Part shown: in pieces, positions 23,327-37,388 of the stretch | Numbering within the stretch: position 1 is the first letter of the stretch | Layout of the letters: each line of letters opens with the position of its first letter | From: Halothermothrix sp. | GTDB taxonomy: Bacteria > Bacillota > Halanaerobiia > DY22613 | DNA: 64,000 bases | Assembly: GCA_016841825.1 (NCBI GenBank) | Contig: JAENYK010000002.1 | Span: 186,001-250,000, forward strand | Reading direction: 5' to 3' | Notes under the pieces: generated by a model | Told to the model about the DNA's origin: nothing | Databases searched by the model: none | What the model saw: only the letters and a program-made list of their open reading frames with translations | Program-made: the position numbers and the translations under genes

Positions 23327-26300
23327 ATGTCAACCAATCATAGTCATGATCAAAAGGAGTGTAGTCTACACTCTGACCCAAAATTATTTCAATTCATAGG
23401 ACAGCAGGTTAGAGAATGTGTTGAAACTATTATTGACCAGATTAATTGTACATACCAGTGTAATCCCCGGTTTTTAGATGAATTGATAATCACAACAGAG
23501 GATGTATATCCAAAAAAACAGGTCATCAATAGGATCTATCAGGTTATCTGTCAGACCATTTTACGTCTGGCGATAATTTCCTGTGCGGAAGTGTTGGGTT
23601 TACTTCCGATTAAAGAGCATACTTATAGTGTCAGATATAGCTTAAGCGGCTTGTGTCTTCAGCTGCAGGAGAAATTAACAAAAGATGATAAACAAAATTT
23701 TGCAAGCAGATTTGACGGTTGGGTCAGGGTACTTAGACTTTTTCAGATCATGGTTGAAGGACTGGATGAACAGGAATTACATATACCTGCTTACGGCGGT
23801 CAACTATTCACCAGTATAGATGGTATCAGCAATGCTTCTACTGCTGGAGATTTGTCTGACTTTGACTCTTCCTGTGTTCAAATAGATAATTGTCATCTAT
23901 CCAGAATTTTGACTGGTTTGAACTTTGAGGATATACTTACCGCTGAAGATGAGTGTTATCCAAAATCCAATAATAGTGATCTATCTCTGCAGTGTATAGA
24001 ATATCTGGGGATAATTCACGAAAGCATGTTAGATTACCATCTTAGCGTAGTTGAGAGCAAAGATGGAGGAGTAAGTTCGTTAGAGTTATGTTTAAATGAG
24101 TGGGATAGGAATAGAAAAGGAATGGGTGCTTTTTATACAAGATGGGAATTGGCCTGGCATACTGTTCGCCATACTTTGGAACCTCTGGTATATGAAAAAG
24201 ATTCAGTTGGTAAGTTGATTCCACGTCTTCCAGAAGAGATACTATCATTAAAAGTCTGTGATCCAGCCTGTGGGTCAGGGTCATTTCTAATCACAACACT
24301 CAAATACCTTCTTCAGAGTTTACAGAGGTCAGTGGAATACCATCAAAGATTAAGAATAAGTGAGCAACAGATAATCCTTTCTTTGACTGGAGAAGAGGAT
24401 GTTATACAAATTCAGAGTCCAATTCCCGAGCAGCGGGATAGTCTGTTAAGAAAAATTTATTGTTTCCAAATTACCCAAAATTGTCTCTATGGAGTGGATA
24501 TCAATCCTCTGGCTGTGGAGTTGGCAAAAGTCTCTCTCTGGATGGAGACTGGCGATCCAGATCTAGCTTTTTCATTCGTAGACCACAGGTTAAAGACAGG
24601 TAATTCATTATTGGGCTGCTGGTCAGATTACTATCAAGAATACCCGATATTAGCCTGGGCAAGAGATGGTGGAGATACTGGTCATTGCGGGGTTCATTAT
24701 CAGAAAGGTCAGTGGAATAAAGAGATTACTGATTTCTTAAAGAGAAGAATCAAACCTGAGATGGTTAAACTAATTCAGGGTGGGCAGGAGCATATATTAG
24801 TAGGACATGAGGATTTACGCGAAGCATTTGATACCTGGTGTGCGATCTGGTTCTGGCCAGCTGATCAACTCAATCAGGATACTCCTACACCACTTAACTT
24901 TAGAAACTTATCTGCAAAAGCTAGTGAGATGGTCAAAGCATTGCGAGAAAAATGGGGATTTTTCCACTGGGAATTGGAGTTTCCGGAAGTTTTTCAAGGG
25001 AAAGATGCGGGTTTTACTGCTCTTGTGGGCAACCCTCCCTGGGAAGTTACTAAACCTAAATCGCAGGAGTTCTTTTTAAAATATGACTCTCTTTATCGAA
25101 AATATGGAAAGCAAAAAGGTTTGAAGATACAGAAAAAATTATTTCAACAACCTCAGATTGAGCGGGACTGGTTGGCTTATCTGGCTGGATTTAAGGCTCT
25201 GACTAATTTTATCAACACAGTAGCTCATCCCTTTGGAGATTGTAAGATCAATGGCGTTAATAGGTTAAATTTGTTATCGAGAAAACAATGGAGTCATAGT
25301 CATAGTTTGCATAGGCAATGGAGAGAAGGTCGTCAGCAGCGAAATCCGGGAGCCGAAGATTATCATCCATATAGATATCAAGGTACTGCAGATCTCAATA
25401 TGTATAAGATATTTTTAGAGATGTCTTTGTATATATTAAAACAAGGCGGTAGATTGGGGATGATATTTCCTTCAAGTATCTATACAGATAAGGGATGTAC
25501 GGAACTTAGAAAGTACCTTTTACAGAAAAATGATTGGGAATTGTTGTTTGGTTTTGAAAATCGCAAGGGCATCTTCCCGATTGATGCCAGATTTAAATTC
25601 TGTGTTATCGTACTGGTCAAGGGCGGAACTACAGAGAAGATTCTGACCAGTTTTATGCGGCATGAGCTTAAAGAACTGCAAAATATAGGAGAGTTCTGTA
25701 TTCCTTATCCCAAAAAACAGGTGCAAACATTTAGTCCATCCAGTATCGCCTGTTTAGAGATTAGATCAGTCAGGGACCAGGAGATTTTAGAGAAGATGTA
25801 TAGTACAGGAGTGCTGTTAGGTGAGAAGAGTAATGGGTGGGATATTCAATTTAATCGGGAGTTTGACATGACTTTGGATTCAGCACTATTCTCAACTCTA
25901 TCCCAGATAAAGGATTTGGGTTATCAATTAGACCAATATGGATATTGGATAGGTCCGGATAAAGAGGTAGCACTACCATTATACGAAGGTCGGATGATCG
26001 GACAGTTTGATTTTTCTGCTAAAGGATGGCTTGCAGGTAGGGGAAGAAGTTCCAGATGGCAAGACATACCCATCGAATCAAAGAGAATTCAGCCGCAGTA
26101 TCTGGTAGCACTATCTGCTCTTGATAAAGAGAGGCTTATGGGGATCAAAGGTTTAAAGTTACCGCTAATGAACATAACCAGTGCTACCAACAGTCGAACC
26201 GTTATCGGAAGTCTTTTAAGAGATTATCCCTGTAATAATGCTCTAAATGCTGTAAGAGTCACAGGTCAGAAAGAGAGACTCTATCATTTAGCGGCATACT

Positions 26301-26902
26301 TTAATTCATTTAGTTATGACTATCTGGTCAGACAAAGATTGGGCGGCTTGAATTTGAATTTTTTTATTCTGGATGAGACTGTGATTCCTCCAATTGGATC
26401 TATGAAGAGAGTCTCCCTTCTTCCTATCTATGTGGCCAGGTTGAATCTGATTCATGAGTGTTTTGCTGTAGAGTGGCTGGAATTGGTCAGAAAATACCCG
26501 GAGATTAAAGTAAATTCCTGGAGATCTCTCTGGGCATTAACAGATCACGAGAGATTGCGATTACGTTGCATTATAGATGCAATAGTAGCAGAACTGTATG
26601 GTTTAGATTGGAGTGATCTGGCCTGGATTTTACGCAATGATTCTACTGACCTCAAAGGTTTCTGGCGAATTGATGAAGATAGACCAGAGAAGATGTGCCA
26701 TACTTATCTGACTCTTGAAGCCTTTCACTATTTGAAGAAAGTCGGACTTCAGGAGTTTTGTCAGGGACAATGGCAGCTGCCCTCTGAGATCGTCAATGAA
26801 TTAGGTCCAGCCTTACTACCACAGCAAGCAAATGAGGATGTGGAAAGTAGTTGGAGAGACTGTGAACTACATGCCAGAAATTATGTCAAAAGTTTGGGTT
26901 AA
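23327..26902 (+). CDS. Large Eco57I-type N6-adenine DNA methyltransferase, solitary
   Basis: 1191 residues. The N-terminal 250 residues (LRLAIISCAEVLGLLP, LHIPAYGGQLF) match the helical region that precedes the methylase in type IIG/IIL enzymes and in DISARM DrmMI proteins. The SAM-binding motif I is DPACGSG (about 312-318), the catalytic motif IV is NPPW (about 569-572), and YGVDINPLAVELAK lies between. The C-terminal half probably recognises the target. I see no clear PD-(D/E)XK nuclease, and no DISARM or BREX partner gene is adjacent. It is therefore either an orphan methylase or a single-chain type IIG enzyme. Confidence 0.85.
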   Translation: MSTNHSHDQKECSLHSDPKLFQFIGQQVRECVETIIDQINCTYQCNPRFLDELIITTEDVYPKKQVINRIYQVICQTILRLAIISCAEVLGLLPIKEHTYSVRYSLSGLCLQLQEKLTKDDKQNFASRFDGWVRVLRLFQIMVEGLDEQELHIPAYGGQLFTSIDGISNASTAGDLSDFDSSCVQIDNCHLSRILTGLNFEDILTAEDECYPKSNNSDLSLQCIEYLGIIHESMLDYHLSVVESKDGGVSSLELCLNEWDRNRKGMGAFYTRWELAWHTVRHTLEPLVYEKDSVGKLIPRLPEEILSLKVCDPACGSGSFLITTLKYLLQSLQRSVEYHQRLRISEQQIILSLTGEEDVIQIQSPIPEQRDSLLRKIYCFQITQNCLYGVDINPLAVELAKVSLWMETGDPDLAFSFVDHRLKTGNSLLGCWSDYYQEYPILAWARDGGDTGHCGVHYQKGQWNKEITDFLKRRIKPEMVKLIQGGQEHILVGHEDLREAFDTWCAIWFWPADQLNQDTPTPLNFRNLSAKASEMVKALREKWGFFHWELEFPEVFQGKDAGFTALVGNPPWEVTKPKSQEFFLKYDSLYRKYGKQKGLKIQKKLFQQPQIERDWLAYLAGFKALTNFINTVAHPFGDCKINGVNRLNLLSRKQWSHSHSLHRQWREGRQQRNPGAEDYHPYRYQGTADLNMYKIFLEMSLYILKQGGRLGMIFPSSIYTDKGCTELRKYLLQKNDWELLFGFENRKGIFPIDARFKFCVIVLVKGGTTEKILTSFMRHELKELQNIGEFCIPYPKKQVQTFSPSSIACLEIRSVRDQEILEKMYSTGVLLGEKSNGWDIQFNREFDMTLDSALFSTLSQIKDLGYQLDQYGYWIGPDKEVALPLYEGRMIGQFDFSAKGWLAGRGRSSRWQDIPIESKRIQPQYLVALSALDKERLMGIKGLKLPLMNITSATNSRTVIGSLLRDYPCNNALNAVRVTGQKERLYHLAAYFNSFSYDYLVRQRLGGLNLNFFILDETVIPPIGSMKRVSLLPIYVARLNLIHECFAVEWLELVRKYPEIKVNSWRSLWALTDHERLRLRCIIDAIVAELYGLDWSDLAWILRNDSTDLKGFWRIDEDRPEKMCHTYLTLEAFHYLKKVGLQEFCQGQWQLPSEIVNELGPALLPQQANEDVESSWRDCELHARNYVKSLG

Positions 26903-26920: not shown

Positions 26921-26949
26921 TTGTAAATCAGGAAGATGTATGATAGAAT
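26921..26949 (+). promoter_or_regulatory. Promoter of ABC-F leader transcript
   Basis: TTGTAA (26921-26926), 17-base spacer, TAGAAT (26944-26949). Transcription would begin near 26956, leaving a 5' leader of about 430 bases before the ABC-F start. Confidence 0.6.
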
Positions 26950-26994
26950 TTTTAATAAAGAAAGTTAATTTTTAAAACGAGAAAGGAGACACCG

Positions 26995-27006
26995 ATGCGC
27001 AAATAA
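26995..27006 (+). CDS. Three-codon leader ORF (Met-Arg-Lys-stop)
   Basis: ATG CGC AAA TAA preceded at 6 bases by AAAGGAG, an SD stronger than many full genes here have. The initiator and stop are so close that a ribosome fills the whole ORF. This is the format of minimal stalling or sensing ORFs ahead of antibiotic-inducible ABC-F genes. Function is inferred from SD quality and position. Confidence 0.6.
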   Translation: MRK

Positions 27007-27206
27007 TGGCTTTTTAAACCTAACTGGATAATTATTATTCATGACTGGTTGGAGTACAACTTGCGTAAGGTTAGTCTATCCTTTTTTAAAACAGAAGTTA
27101 TTTGACGTGCTTGTTAGCACAGTATCTAATGCTACCAAAGCTTATTCATATTCTTCATGAATTTGTGTAAGCTGTGGAAGAGTATTGGCATAGGATGATT
27201 TACCCT

Positions 27207-27242
27207 GCCATAGTTGGTCATACAACCAGCTATGGCTTTTTT
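27207..27242 (+). terminator. Attenuator terminator before ABC-F gene
   Basis: 12-bp stem GCCATAGTTGGT / ACCAGCTATGGC (one G-U), 6-nt loop, six T. It lies 200 bases after the Met-Arg-Lys ORF and 146 before the ABC-F start, with no other gene between. Confidence 0.88.
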
Positions 27243-27306
27243 ATTGTTGAAAATTAGCAGGTTAAAAAATATTAAGGAGTTATCTTAGCAAGGAGGTTTA
27301 CAAACG

Positions 27307-27336
27307 ATGATTAACAGATGGAAGTCTTCATATTAG
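27307..27336 (+). CDS. Second leader mini-ORF, 9 residues
   Basis: Encodes MINRWKSSY, with AAGGAGG 10 bases upstream of the ATG. It lies between the terminator and the ABC-F gene, so it could add a translational layer of control. Its SD is very strong for a chance ORF. Confidence 0.5.
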   Translation: MINRWKSSY

Positions 27337-27387
27337 ATTAAAATTAACAGGGATAAAATTCTAAAATTATATATTTGAGGTGATTTT

Positions 27388-29142
27388 ATGGATATGGTAA
27401 ATTGTCAAAATATCAAAAAATCTTTTGCAGATACAGTAGTTTTAAACAATTTGAATATGCAGATTAAAGAAGGAGAGCGGCTGGGTTTAGTCGGTTCTAA
27501 TGGGTGTGGAAAGAGTACTCTGGCGAATATGCTTTTTGGCAGCATGGATTATGATGATGGGGTAATAACTTATTATCGTTCAGACTTACGGATTGGATAT
27601 CTGCTGCAGTCTAAGGAATATATGTTGAATGAGATAAATCCTTTTGCAGGAACAGAGATTCCAGGTCAAGATAGTTATTCTAACGACTGTTATACAATGA
27701 TCAAAAATCTGGGTCTGGAGGATGTTCAACAGTGGGAGGCTGAGCGATTCTCCGGGTTGAGTGGTGGTGAAAAGACCAGATTAGCTCTAGCCAATATTTG
27801 GGCAAAGAGTCCAGAGTTTTTGATTTTAGATGAACCGACTAATCATCTGGATTTCCAGGGTATTGATTGGTTGATTGGGGAACTTCAATCATATCGGGGA
27901 ACAGTATTGATTATCTCTCATGATAGATATTTTTTGGATCAGGTTGTCACCCGGATAGTAGAGATTGAAGATGGTCAGGCCACCAGCTATCCGGGTAATT
28001 ACACCGCTTATCGGGAAGAGAAAGCAAGACAGTATGAGATTCAACTCCATCAATATGTTGAGCAGAAGAAGAAAGAAGAGAAGATCGAAGGTGAGATCGA
28101 TCGACTGAAGAATTGGTCAGCAAAAGCTCATCGGGAAGCTAAATATACAGAGATTAAGAAAGGTGGAAAGGAATTTTACCGTTCTAAGGCAAAGCGAATG
28201 GATGTTGCAGTTAAGTCGCGAATTAAACGTCTTGAAAGGATGCGTGGAGCAGGGGTATCTAGACCGAAAGAGGAACCCACTGTTAGTTTTTCACTCAAGG
28301 ATGCTAAAAAACATGGTCGAAGGATTCTGGAAGCTGTAGAGATTAAGAAAACTTTTGGAGAGCGGACACTTTTCGCAGACAGTTCATTTTGCATTCAACG
28401 GGGTGAACGGGTAGGGTTGCTGGGGAATAATGGTTGTGGCAAAACTACATTGCTTAAAATTATACTGGGTGAAGTAGATCTAGAGCAAGGTGAGGTCTGG
28501 ATTAGTCCTTCGGCACAGATTGGCTATCTAAGTCAAGATATGCAGGATGTGCAGCCAGAATTAACAGTGCTGGAGAGTCTGGGATTGAGTAAACAGATCT
28601 TTATTGATTCAGCACGCAAAGTTTTGGCAAATCTGGGCATAGATGAGATGAAAATTGAGAAACGGATTGAACAGCTTAGTATGGGGGAACGGGTGCGAAT
28701 ACAGCTGGCAAAACTTATTCTCAATCAGGCAGATTTGCTTATCTTAGATGAGCCAACCAATCATCTGGATTTATATAGTCGAGAAGAGTTGGAAGATTCC
28801 CTGACAACCTATGAAGGTACTATGATAATAGTCTCCCATGATCGTTATATGTTAGAAAAATTATGCACCCATCTGTTAATTTTTGAAGATGCCAGAATCA
28901 GAAAATTAGCGGGTAGTTTTCGGGAATATCAACCAAAACAGATCAAGAAAGAATACTGTGATTTAGAAAGGTATAAAGAAGAATTGCTGATAGTTGAAAA
29001 TCGTCTGATAGGTGTATTGGGTTCGCTTAATCAATACACAGATGGGGACCCTGAATATGCTCAGTTAGATAGTGAATTCCAGCAATTAGCTAAAAGAAAG
29101 CTGGAATTAAAGTCGAAACTGGAACAGTCAAAAATGTGCTGA
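27388..29142 (+). CDS. ABC-F ribosome-protection ATPase (antibiotic-resistance type)
   Basis: 584 residues, two ATPase domains and no membrane segment. Domain 1 has Walker A GSNGCGKST, signature LSGGEK and Walker B FLILDEPTNHLD. Domain 2 has GNNGCGKTT, LSMGER and LLILDEPTNHLD. The interdomain linker (about 200-300) is long, charged and helical (KKKEEKIEGEIDRLKNWSAK), as in target-protection ABC-F proteins (Vga/Lsa/CplR/VmlR group) that dislodge drugs from the peptidyl transferase centre. The attenuated leader supports a resistance role over a housekeeping EttA-like one. The drug spectrum cannot be read from sequence. Confidence 0.88.
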   Translation: MDMVNCQNIKKSFADTVVLNNLNMQIKEGERLGLVGSNGCGKSTLANMLFGSMDYDDGVITYYRSDLRIGYLLQSKEYMLNEINPFAGTEIPGQDSYSNDCYTMIKNLGLEDVQQWEAERFSGLSGGEKTRLALANIWAKSPEFLILDEPTNHLDFQGIDWLIGELQSYRGTVLIISHDRYFLDQVVTRIVEIEDGQATSYPGNYTAYREEKARQYEIQLHQYVEQKKKEEKIEGEIDRLKNWSAKAHREAKYTEIKKGGKEFYRSKAKRMDVAVKSRIKRLERMRGAGVSRPKEEPTVSFSLKDAKKHGRRILEAVEIKKTFGERTLFADSSFCIQRGERVGLLGNNGCGKTTLLKIILGEVDLEQGEVWISPSAQIGYLSQDMQDVQPELTVLESLGLSKQIFIDSARKVLANLGIDEMKIEKRIEQLSMGERVRIQLAKLILNQADLLILDEPTNHLDLYSREELEDSLTTYEGTMIIVSHDRYMLEKLCTHLLIFEDARIRKLAGSFREYQPKQIKKEYCDLERYKEELLIVENRLIGVLGSLNQYTDGDPEYAQLDSEFQQLAKRKLELKSKLEQSKMC

Positions 29143-29159
29143 ACAGATTGAATAGACAT

Positions 29160-29196
29160 ACAGCCAGAAGTTAAGAGACTTCTGGCTGTAATTTTT
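29160..29196 (+). terminator. Terminator of ABC-F gene
   Basis: 12-bp perfect stem ACAGCCAGAAGT / ACTTCTGGCTGT, 6-nt loop, then AATTTTT. Confidence 0.88.
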
Positions 29197-29267
29197 ATAG
29201 TGATTGAAGATTAAAATTCTAAACTTTAAAAATTAACATAAATATGTAGGAGGAGGTGAAGGATGCT

Positions 29268-31526
29268 ATGAACAGGTTATCACATTGGGTTTCAAGTTAC
29301 TCCCGGGTAATTATTGGTATAGTTCTGGTGATTACAGTCGTTTTCGCCTATTTTGCAATAAAGATTGATATAAAAGCCGGAATTAAAGAGATGTTTCCGG
29401 AACAAGATCAGGCGGTTCAAACCTATGATCACGTAGAGGCGCTTTTCGGAGGAATTGTCTATGTGGTGATGATGATTGAAGATGATCAGATCTTAGATCA
29501 ACCCACTCTAACACTGGTTAACGAGCTTAGTTGCCGATTTTCGCAAATTGTCGGTGTAGATGGAGTGACCAGCCTGGCGACGATAAAAAATATTCGCAAT
29601 GATGACTTTGGAATTGAGATTACTAATTTTATGGAGAATGTACCTCAAAATGAAGCAGAAATTCTTCGTTTAAAGGAAGATCTTCAGGCGAGTGATAATT
29701 ATCTGGGTTCTGTGATAAGTGAAGATTTTAAATCAACAGTGATTTTGGTTAAAATTAATACCAGAGATAGTCAGGCAGAGAGTATTCTGGCTGAGATGGA
29801 AGAGATAGCTGGGAGTTATCAGGGAACCGAAAGATATTATATCACAGGGCCAACGGTTTTAGCGTCAATAGCCACCGACTATATAAAGAAGGATTTGACT
29901 AAACTCTTGCCCTTCATAATCGGGATCATTATCCTCATACTCTGGCTCACCTTTAGAAGTTTGCGGGGTGTGGTCTTACCTTTAATTACTGTTTTGATCA
30001 GTGTAATCTGGACAGTAGGTTTACTATCAATGATTGGCAAATCTTTATCGATGATCAGCACTGTTCTACCCGTGTTGTTAGTCAGTGTGGGAAGTGCCTA
30101 TGCCATTCACTTTATCGCCAGATATTATGAAGAACTCAATCATGGGTTTGGAGTAGAACAATCTCTTGACAATACCATTAAGCATGTGGGTGCTGCAGTA
30201 ATCATGGCAGGAGGTACTACTATTGCGGGTTTTTCTTCCCTCATAACTTCACCGCTTCGTATCATTAAAGAGTTTGGTCTGGCTACTGCTTTTGGGGTCG
30301 GAGTAGCTCTAATCGTTGCCATAACTTTTGTTCCGGCAGTGTTATTAAATCTATCCCCACCGAGAAAACTACGATTAACAGAGAACAGTTGGTTGAATAA
30401 GCTTTTTCGTCGGATTTCACAGATGATTTCTAAATATCGTCTGGTGATAATTGGTCTGGCAGTTTTGTTGGCGGTGGCGTCGATAATAATTATGCCACAG
30501 CTTAAACCTGAGACCAATTATATTAGTTATTTTAAGCAGAACTCATCTCCACGGGTGGCTATGGAACAGGTTGATCAGAGGTTTGGTGGTGCCATGTCTT
30601 TAGAATTGGTCATTTATGGAGATATAAAAAATCCTGATCTTTTGAGTAGAATGGAGATCTTTCAGCAAAAGGTTGAGGAACTGGAGAGGGTTAATCAGTG
30701 TATATCAATGGTAGATATATTTAAAGAAGAGAATAAAGCTTTACATAATGGTGATCAGACGATGAAAGTAATTCCGACTACGGAAAATCAGATTGCCCAA
30801 TATCTATTGTTATTGACACTATCTGATGAACAGTTTATCAGAGATTATCTGACCTTTGATTATGGGGCAACCAAAATCCAGATAAAAATAAGCAATGCAT
30901 CCAGTAATCAGTTAAAACAGACAATCGGAGAGGTAAAAATGTTGGTCGATCAGTATTTTGGAGAGAACTATGACATAGAGTTAACGGGAGTTCCTGTATT
31001 AATGAGTGAAATGATGAATCGGGTGGTCACAAGTCAGATTAATAGTTTAATTCTCTCAGTCATCTGCGCCTTTATTCTCACCAGCCTATTTTTAAAATCT
31101 GTAAAATACGGTCTATTCTGCTCACTGCCGATCTGTTTAACTATTTTGTTGAACTTTGGAATAATGGGATGGACCGGGATACCTCTCGATTTTGCTACTT
31201 CAATGATCGCCAGTATAGCTGTGGGAATAGGTGTTGACTATAGTATTCATATCTTCTCCCGTTATCTAGAAGAAAAAGTAGAGCATGAAGATTCTCATCA
31301 GGCTTTGATCACAGCAATCTGCACAGTGGGGCAGGCTAACCTATACAATGCGTTGGCAGTAGTTGCTGGATTTTCAGTAATCCTCTGTTCATCATTTTCT
31401 CCACTGGTGAACTTCGGTGGATTGACAGCTACTACAATGATAGTATCATTTTTCGGAGCTGTACTTATATTGCCAGCTGTAATTATATGGGCTTTACAGA
31501 TTCAACAGAAAAATAAAAACCTATAA
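29268..31526 (+). CDS. RND/MMPL transporter, HAE3-like
   Basis: 752 residues from ATG 29268; AGGAGGTGA lies 8 bases before it, and the GTG at 29256 falls inside that SD. There are two repeats, each with one helix, a large exported loop (GIKEMFPE near 40; TNYISYFKQNSSPRVA near 420) and five more helices, twelve in all. Motifs include GVGVALIVAITFVPAVLLNL and GIGVDYSIHIFSRYLEE with the conserved Asp pair region. The HAE3 type is found in archaea and diverse bacteria and may move lipids or hopanoid-like molecules. It is monocistronic. Confidence 0.88.
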   Translation: MNRLSHWVSSYSRVIIGIVLVITVVFAYFAIKIDIKAGIKEMFPEQDQAVQTYDHVEALFGGIVYVVMMIEDDQILDQPTLTLVNELSCRFSQIVGVDGVTSLATIKNIRNDDFGIEITNFMENVPQNEAEILRLKEDLQASDNYLGSVISEDFKSTVILVKINTRDSQAESILAEMEEIAGSYQGTERYYITGPTVLASIATDYIKKDLTKLLPFIIGIIILILWLTFRSLRGVVLPLITVLISVIWTVGLLSMIGKSLSMISTVLPVLLVSVGSAYAIHFIARYYEELNHGFGVEQSLDNTIKHVGAAVIMAGGTTIAGFSSLITSPLRIIKEFGLATAFGVGVALIVAITFVPAVLLNLSPPRKLRLTENSWLNKLFRRISQMISKYRLVIIGLAVLLAVASIIIMPQLKPETNYISYFKQNSSPRVAMEQVDQRFGGAMSLELVIYGDIKNPDLLSRMEIFQQKVEELERVNQCISMVDIFKEENKALHNGDQTMKVIPTTENQIAQYLLLLTLSDEQFIRDYLTFDYGATKIQIKISNASSNQLKQTIGEVKMLVDQYFGENYDIELTGVPVLMSEMMNRVVTSQINSLILSVICAFILTSLFLKSVKYGLFCSLPICLTILLNFGIMGWTGIPLDFATSMIASIAVGIGVDYSIHIFSRYLEEKVEHEDSHQALITAICTVGQANLYNALAVVAGFSVILCSSFSPLVNFGGLTATTMIVSFFGAVLILPAVIIWALQIQQKNKNL

Positions 31527-37112: not shown

Positions 37113-37388
<276 letters not shown>

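Follow-up and report, generated by a model that had tools for sequence, protein, structure and literature searches.

A predicted vmlR-type transcription attenuator with a three-codon Met-Arg-Lys uORF ahead of a VmlR2-like ABC-F gene in Halothermothrix sp.

The closest described counterpart of the locus studied here is the vmlR leader of Bacillus subtilis. Its three-codon upstream open reading frame (uORF), MIN, lies within stem-loop SL-1, an anti-antiterminator, and is followed by an antiterminator capped by SL-2 and then by the terminator, a layout proved by mutation (PMC9226507). Induction by lincomycin requires the start codon and the Shine–Dalgarno (SD) sequence of the uORF, and the natural uORF variants MDN, MDK and MRK from other Bacilli worked when tested, with MRK inducing less well than MIN (PMC9226507). 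Further three-codon uORFs are MK[L/Q] in vmlR2 and MRI in cplR of Clostridioides difficile (PMC10201436), as well as MLV in are5sc of Streptomyces, where lincomycin, clindamycin, tiamulin and pristinamycin IIA stop ribosomes at the start codon (PMC12421871). For msrD, induction is described as macrolide-specific (PMC10314930).

By prediction, the window analyzed here, a stretch of 64,000 nucleotides from Halothermothrix sp., would share every sequence-testable feature of the vmlR type except a clear SL-4. Its + strand encodes a VmlR2/VmlR-like ABC-F ATPase of 584 aa (27388–29142; SD at 27377–27383). The protein scored 483.7 bits against the NCBIfam model NF000355 for ribosomal-protection-like ABC-F proteins (cut-off 380) and stayed under every cut-off of the named resistance subfamily models Vga, Msr, CplR and Sal. 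Among solved structures, VmlR2 was nearest (8buu, E 4.5e-156, residues 4–577), followed by B. subtilis VmlR (6ha8, E 2.1e-105). Family membership thus points to a ribosome-protection protein of the VmlR/VmlR2 group, a function that it would be expected to exert in cells. The genome carries a single copy, and its other ABC-F proteins are far weaker matches.

The leader of this gene, also on the + strand, starts behind a sigma-A type promoter detected by consensus scan (TTGTAA-17-TAGAAT with an extended -10 TG, 26921–26949), from whose position an RNA start at ~26956 is expected. At the 5' end of the leader, the SD AAAGGAG (26982–26988) precedes uORF1, ATG CGC AAA TAA, which encodes Met-Arg-Lys (26995–27006); the string ATGCGCAAATAA with AAAGGAG spans 26982–27006. 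Scan and fold located an intrinsic terminator at 27207–27242, comprising a 12-bp stem (GCCATAGTTGGT/ACCAGCTATGGC, 27207–27236) and U6. Beyond it, a second SD, AAGGAGG (27290–27296), leads a nine-codon ORF, MINRWKSSY* (27307–27336). A preliminary description had named a mini-ORF, a terminator, a second ORF and an ABC-F gene at this locus, and each of these elements was confirmed in its place. Upstream lies a gene for an adenine-specific DNA methyltransferase-like protein (1191 aa, 23327–26902) with weak matches to Alw26I/PglX-type enzymes. Its stop codon at 26902 is followed by the ABC-F promoter, and the scan found no terminator between them. Downstream, a terminator-like hairpin (29159–29190, strand not assigned) was found by scan 3' of the ABC-F gene, and an HAE3/MMPL-family RND transporter-like gene (29256–31526) lies beyond a terminator. 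The window also contains a bacterial large SRP RNA at 37119–37385 (Rfam RF01854, 199.5 bits).

The leader is strongly structured, with a folding energy of -87.7 kcal/mol compared to -58.9 +/- 4.4 kcal/mol for shuffles (z -6.6). Both the minimum-energy and the centroid fold contain a long hairpin, SL-1 (26979–27087), as the predicted anti-antiterminator. In the free fold, its 5' arm (26979–27002), which holds the uORF and its SD, pairs with the 3' arm (27061–27087), and the latter contains the predicted antiterminator strand. When the uORF region was masked, the fold placed this 5' antiterminator strand (27057–27082) opposite a 3' strand at 27192–27216 that overlaps the left arm of the terminator, with SL-2 (27123–27197) at the apex. 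Rfam searches covering the whole window, and the leader again at loose thresholds, returned no leader family or riboswitch at gathering score within the leader. SL-1 runs straight into UCCUUUUUUAAAA (27079–27091) and could, therefore, itself terminate transcription weakly at an early point or make the polymerase pause.

In the full-length minimum-energy fold, the terminator was kept even with the uORF masked, and the switch is not visible at equilibrium. The switch must, therefore, be kinetic, with the antiterminator forming ahead of the terminator while the RNA is being made, as is usual in attenuators. Because full-length folds are blind to such a switch, the terminator always winning, the test was done on a transcript ended at the terminator left arm, with the 30 nt under a start-codon ribosome kept unpaired. 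In this masked fold, the SL-1 3' arm and 27192–27216 formed five helices with 20 pairs, carrying SL-2 at the apex and occupying the terminator left arm. The antiterminator gained 3.9 kcal/mol over the free state, a value that one in 500 shuffled versions of the intervening sequence reached. Moving the 30-nt mask along the leader gave gains of 2.6–4.4 kcal/mol only with the P site at 26983–27001 and ~0 elsewhere. The gain was 3.95 kcal/mol with the start codon in the P site, 4.05 with the second codon and 2.58 with the third; with the ribosome positioned upstream or downstream of the uORF, pairing of the terminator left arm did not change.

To compare leaders, we collected orthologues from other genomes (41–52% identity) and inspected 21 loci including the window, calling uORFs by pattern and by eye. 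An SD-led uORF of three to nine codons was present in 18 of the 21, with differing peptides. Three-codon forms are MRK (window and L038), MRR (L036), MWN (L040) and MKY (L047). The longer ones comprise MRKCILA (L037, L039), MHKRTLA (L048), MRHILDRSE (L015), MFIRS (L032, L033), MFIHVLN (L034), MFIKFLAF (L035), MFRNLTQ, MFRTLAH and MFRTLTR (L016–L018), MKFLLI (L014) and MINLFLA (L041). SD spacing was unusually long in L014 and L016–L018, and the SD was weak in L040 and L047. Nearly all loci have a terminator between uORF and gene (assigned by eye in L032, L033 and L041), and in most relatives the uORF sits within the SL-1 5' arm, as in the window. In three loci, L031, L049 (from Paenibacillus) and L013, the leader and the uORF are both missing; by family, L013 is the closest relative. 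In the protein tree, uORF types follow well-supported clades, and the MRK/MRR loci lie on unresolved deep branches. Combined over the 18 leaders, the ribosome-dependent gain was significant at P ~6e-6, and at ~6e-4 with one leader per clade and the window left out. Covariation was assessed in the MFI group, the window's own SL-1 having no close orthologues for this purpose; the covariation score beat most shuffles (17 of 500 reached it), whereas counts of changes on both sides did not.

The uORF motif also recurs at the DNA level. The pattern AAAGGAG-N3-9-ATGCGCARRTAR matched five times in 398 genomes of the phylum, and the reversed control pattern had no match. Three of the five matches lie ahead of this same ABC-F gene, in three different families, namely that of the window and two others. 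A recurrence of the motif ahead of ABC-F genes, suggested in the preliminary description as something to look for, was thereby found. The remaining two matches (L045, L046) were discarded as one site inside a coding gene in two species of one genus. The same-family genome G001 contains no MRK motif.

Several of the collected loci showed features of their own. L031 represents the loss of the leader in one species whose genus sisters carry MFIRS leaders; upstream of position 1501 of this locus, another gene is followed by a short SD-led ORF, whose end overlaps the ABC-F start (MNGIRVKKIEKLYRGDLYAIALH). In L040 and L047 (reoriented where needed), the terminator's right arm, at about -100 to -50 relative to the start of the ABC-F match, contains the SD of the following ORF, which is the ABC-F gene itself in L040 and a nine-codon ORF in L047. 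The same arrangement is reported for cplR, and it would couple termination to masking of the SD. The genome of the window also shows, at L003:775–1048 on contig C2, an SD-led mini-ORF, MLLMC* (819–836), and a terminator (about 990–1018) just before the start of a second ABC-F gene (about 517 aa, NF000355 480 bits). Folding this leader gave no ribosome-dependent gain with its terminator. A single-protein search of genome contigs recovered only distant ABC-F paralogues (25–31%), which were not used.

Taken together, the anatomy, the mutually exclusive pairings, the dependence on ribosome position and the recurrence in relatives, all established by computation, point to a vmlR-type ribosome-mediated transcription attenuator in which a uORF-stalled ribosome would be the drug sensor. 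We put the probability of this reading at roughly 85% and regard the switch as real and probably functional, on evidence that is computational throughout. Leader attenuation of the ABC-F gene in the manner of vmlR, as anticipated in the preliminary description, is thus backed by the blocked fold, the position scan and the motif recurrence. Against it stand the full-length fold that keeps the terminator, the missing leaders of L013, L031 and L049, the weaker induction by MRK than by MIN in B. subtilis, the weak covariation in the MFI group and five leaders in which the ribosome effect, taken singly, is absent: L036 (MRR), L038 (MRK), L048, L016 and L017.

From these data we infer uORF translation, cellular termination and read-through, the classes of inducing drugs and the action of the protein as follows. 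RNA synthesis would begin near 26956, and a ribosome would load on the three-codon uORF before the SL-1 3' arm is transcribed. In the absence of drug, the ribosome would complete MRK at once and depart; SL-1 would then close over the uORF and its SD, and formation of the terminator (27207–27236) would end transcription. A drug that arrests the ribosome on the start codon or immediately past it would mask the SL-1 5' arm, with pleuromutilins, lincosamides and streptogramin A expected from family membership. The freed strand 27057–27082 could then pair with 27192–27216 around SL-2 and take up the terminator left arm. RNA polymerase would read into the ABC-F gene, whose product would release ribosomes from the drug.

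What such a sensor detects across the VmlR2-like lineage could be the place of the ribosome rather than the peptide, a proposal that we hold tentatively and at somewhat worse than even odds. Selection would keep the SD, the start codon and the RNA stem while the uORF drifts between three and nine codons and, in the MFI group, changes frame. Members of this group retain the stem element GUUCUUAAC/GUUAAGAAC, with one A-U to G-C exchange in L035, while small indels shift its reading frame (...CGT TCT TAA, ...CAC GTT CTT AAC TAA and ...AAG TTC TTA GCT). The RNA stem seems to be conserved here rather than the peptide, which agrees with drugs acting at or just after initiation. Likewise, the letters TGCGCAA of the window uORF may be conserved because they are paired in SL-1. 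With the SD of the window buried in SL-1, probably only the first ribosome on the nascent RNA would sense the drug, unlike in vmlR.

The preliminary description had further assigned translational control to the second ORF. Attenuation would then be joined by a second layer in which the nine-codon ORF (27307–27336) controls access to the ABC-F start, an addition that we consider unlikely. An SD with an ORF behind the terminator arose in only 0.4% (strict) to 1.5% (relaxed) of dinucleotide shuffles, so that chance is an unlikely origin of the ORF in the window; SD-led ORFs past the terminator also occur in L032 (MIRIKRA), L033 (MFRKEQA) and L047 (MDKILTFIQ), and vmlR carries a partial SD-sequestering hairpin, SL-4. 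However, such an ORF was seen in these three relatives only and their peptides are unrelated, the ABC-F SD is only partly paired (unpaired probability 0.30–0.46) with no strong hairpin in the fold, and a clear alternative structure that a ribosome on the second ORF would release was not found. The translational role finds no support here.

Still within attenuation, the signal might instead come from a ribosome arrested during termination or through its nascent MRK peptide, with Arg-Lys itself being sensed through a context-dependent stall of the kind that macrolides and ketolides cause at R/K-x-R/K. The recurrence of MR[KR] at the DNA level in three families, the frequent basic residues at codons 2–3 of other uORFs and the opening of the antiterminator by a ribosome whose P site holds the third codon (2.58 kcal/mol) all fit this proposal. 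We nevertheless judge it improbable: the start- and second-codon positions work better (3.95–4.05 kcal/mol), orthologous uORF peptides vary widely (MRK, MWN, MKY, MFIRS, MINLFLA), the MFI group keeps the stem GUUCUUAAC while indels alter its frame, TGCGCAA conservation may come from its SL-1 position and vmlR accepts MIN, MDN, MDK and MRK alike as working uORFs.

A general translation or starvation sensor, in which any slow uORF translation rather than antibiotics specifically causes read-through, be it from a shortage of charged tRNA-Arg or tRNA-Lys or from an initiation slowdown, would be consistent with the equal effect of masking codon 2 and the start codon. It is very improbable given that the uORF has a single Arg and a single Lys codon with other residues in relatives, that the controlled gene encodes a ribosome-protection ABC-F protein and that the cognate drugs are what vmlR responds to. 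Least credible of all is a chance SD-ATG in front of a terminator that merely ends the upstream methyltransferase transcript, for although the methyltransferase gene stops at 26902 and no terminator separates it from the leader, the leader has its own promoter downstream of that stop codon, an SD with ATG and short ORF appeared in only 0.5% of dinucleotide shuffles of the leader segment, the motif recurs at the orthologous gene in other families and the switch is position-specific.

The attenuator proposed here closely resembles vmlR in its SD-led three-codon uORF within SL-1, the apical SL-2, the terminator and the VmlR-like ABC-F gene. It differs in its longer leader (about 430 nt versus 219 nt), in the uORF SD, which lies inside the SL-1 lower stem and in vmlR in single-stranded RNA before SL-1, and in having no strong SL-4 and instead a second SD-led ORF after the terminator. 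With vmlR2, compared by protein and uORF, it shares the nearest solved protein (8buu, E 4.5e-156, 574 residues) and a three-codon uORF, which reads MK[L/Q] there and MRK here. As in cplR, a three-codon Met-Arg uORF with a hairpin around it and a terminator precede an ABC-F gene, but the cplR terminator hairpin also sequesters the gene SD, whereas the terminator here lies 151 nt before the gene. The are5sc system likewise places a three-codon uORF, with a stop at the start codon, ahead of an ABC-F gene, but is actinobacterial, uses a TTG start and belongs to another ABC-F subfamily. In msrD, an ABC-F gene is similarly attenuated by a ribosome that a drug stalls on a short uORF, but stalling there is nascent-peptide dependent. 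The proposal that a minimal ORF makes the ribosome itself the drug sensor is thus supported by the folds and the position scan as regards a ribosome held at the uORF, but not as a new idea, given the published vmlR, cplR, vmlR2 and are5sc precedents. With the mechanism already described for three-codon uORFs and even for the MRK variant, the locus is a well-supported new example rather than a new mechanism. It would carry the vmlR attenuator type, three-codon uORF included, beyond the Bacilli to distant relatives. The 18 leaders form a set in which the contributions of the start codon, the peptide and the RNA stem can be distinguished, and a uORF cut down to three codons would provide natural evidence that a stall at or just after initiation suffices to induce resistance ABC-F genes.
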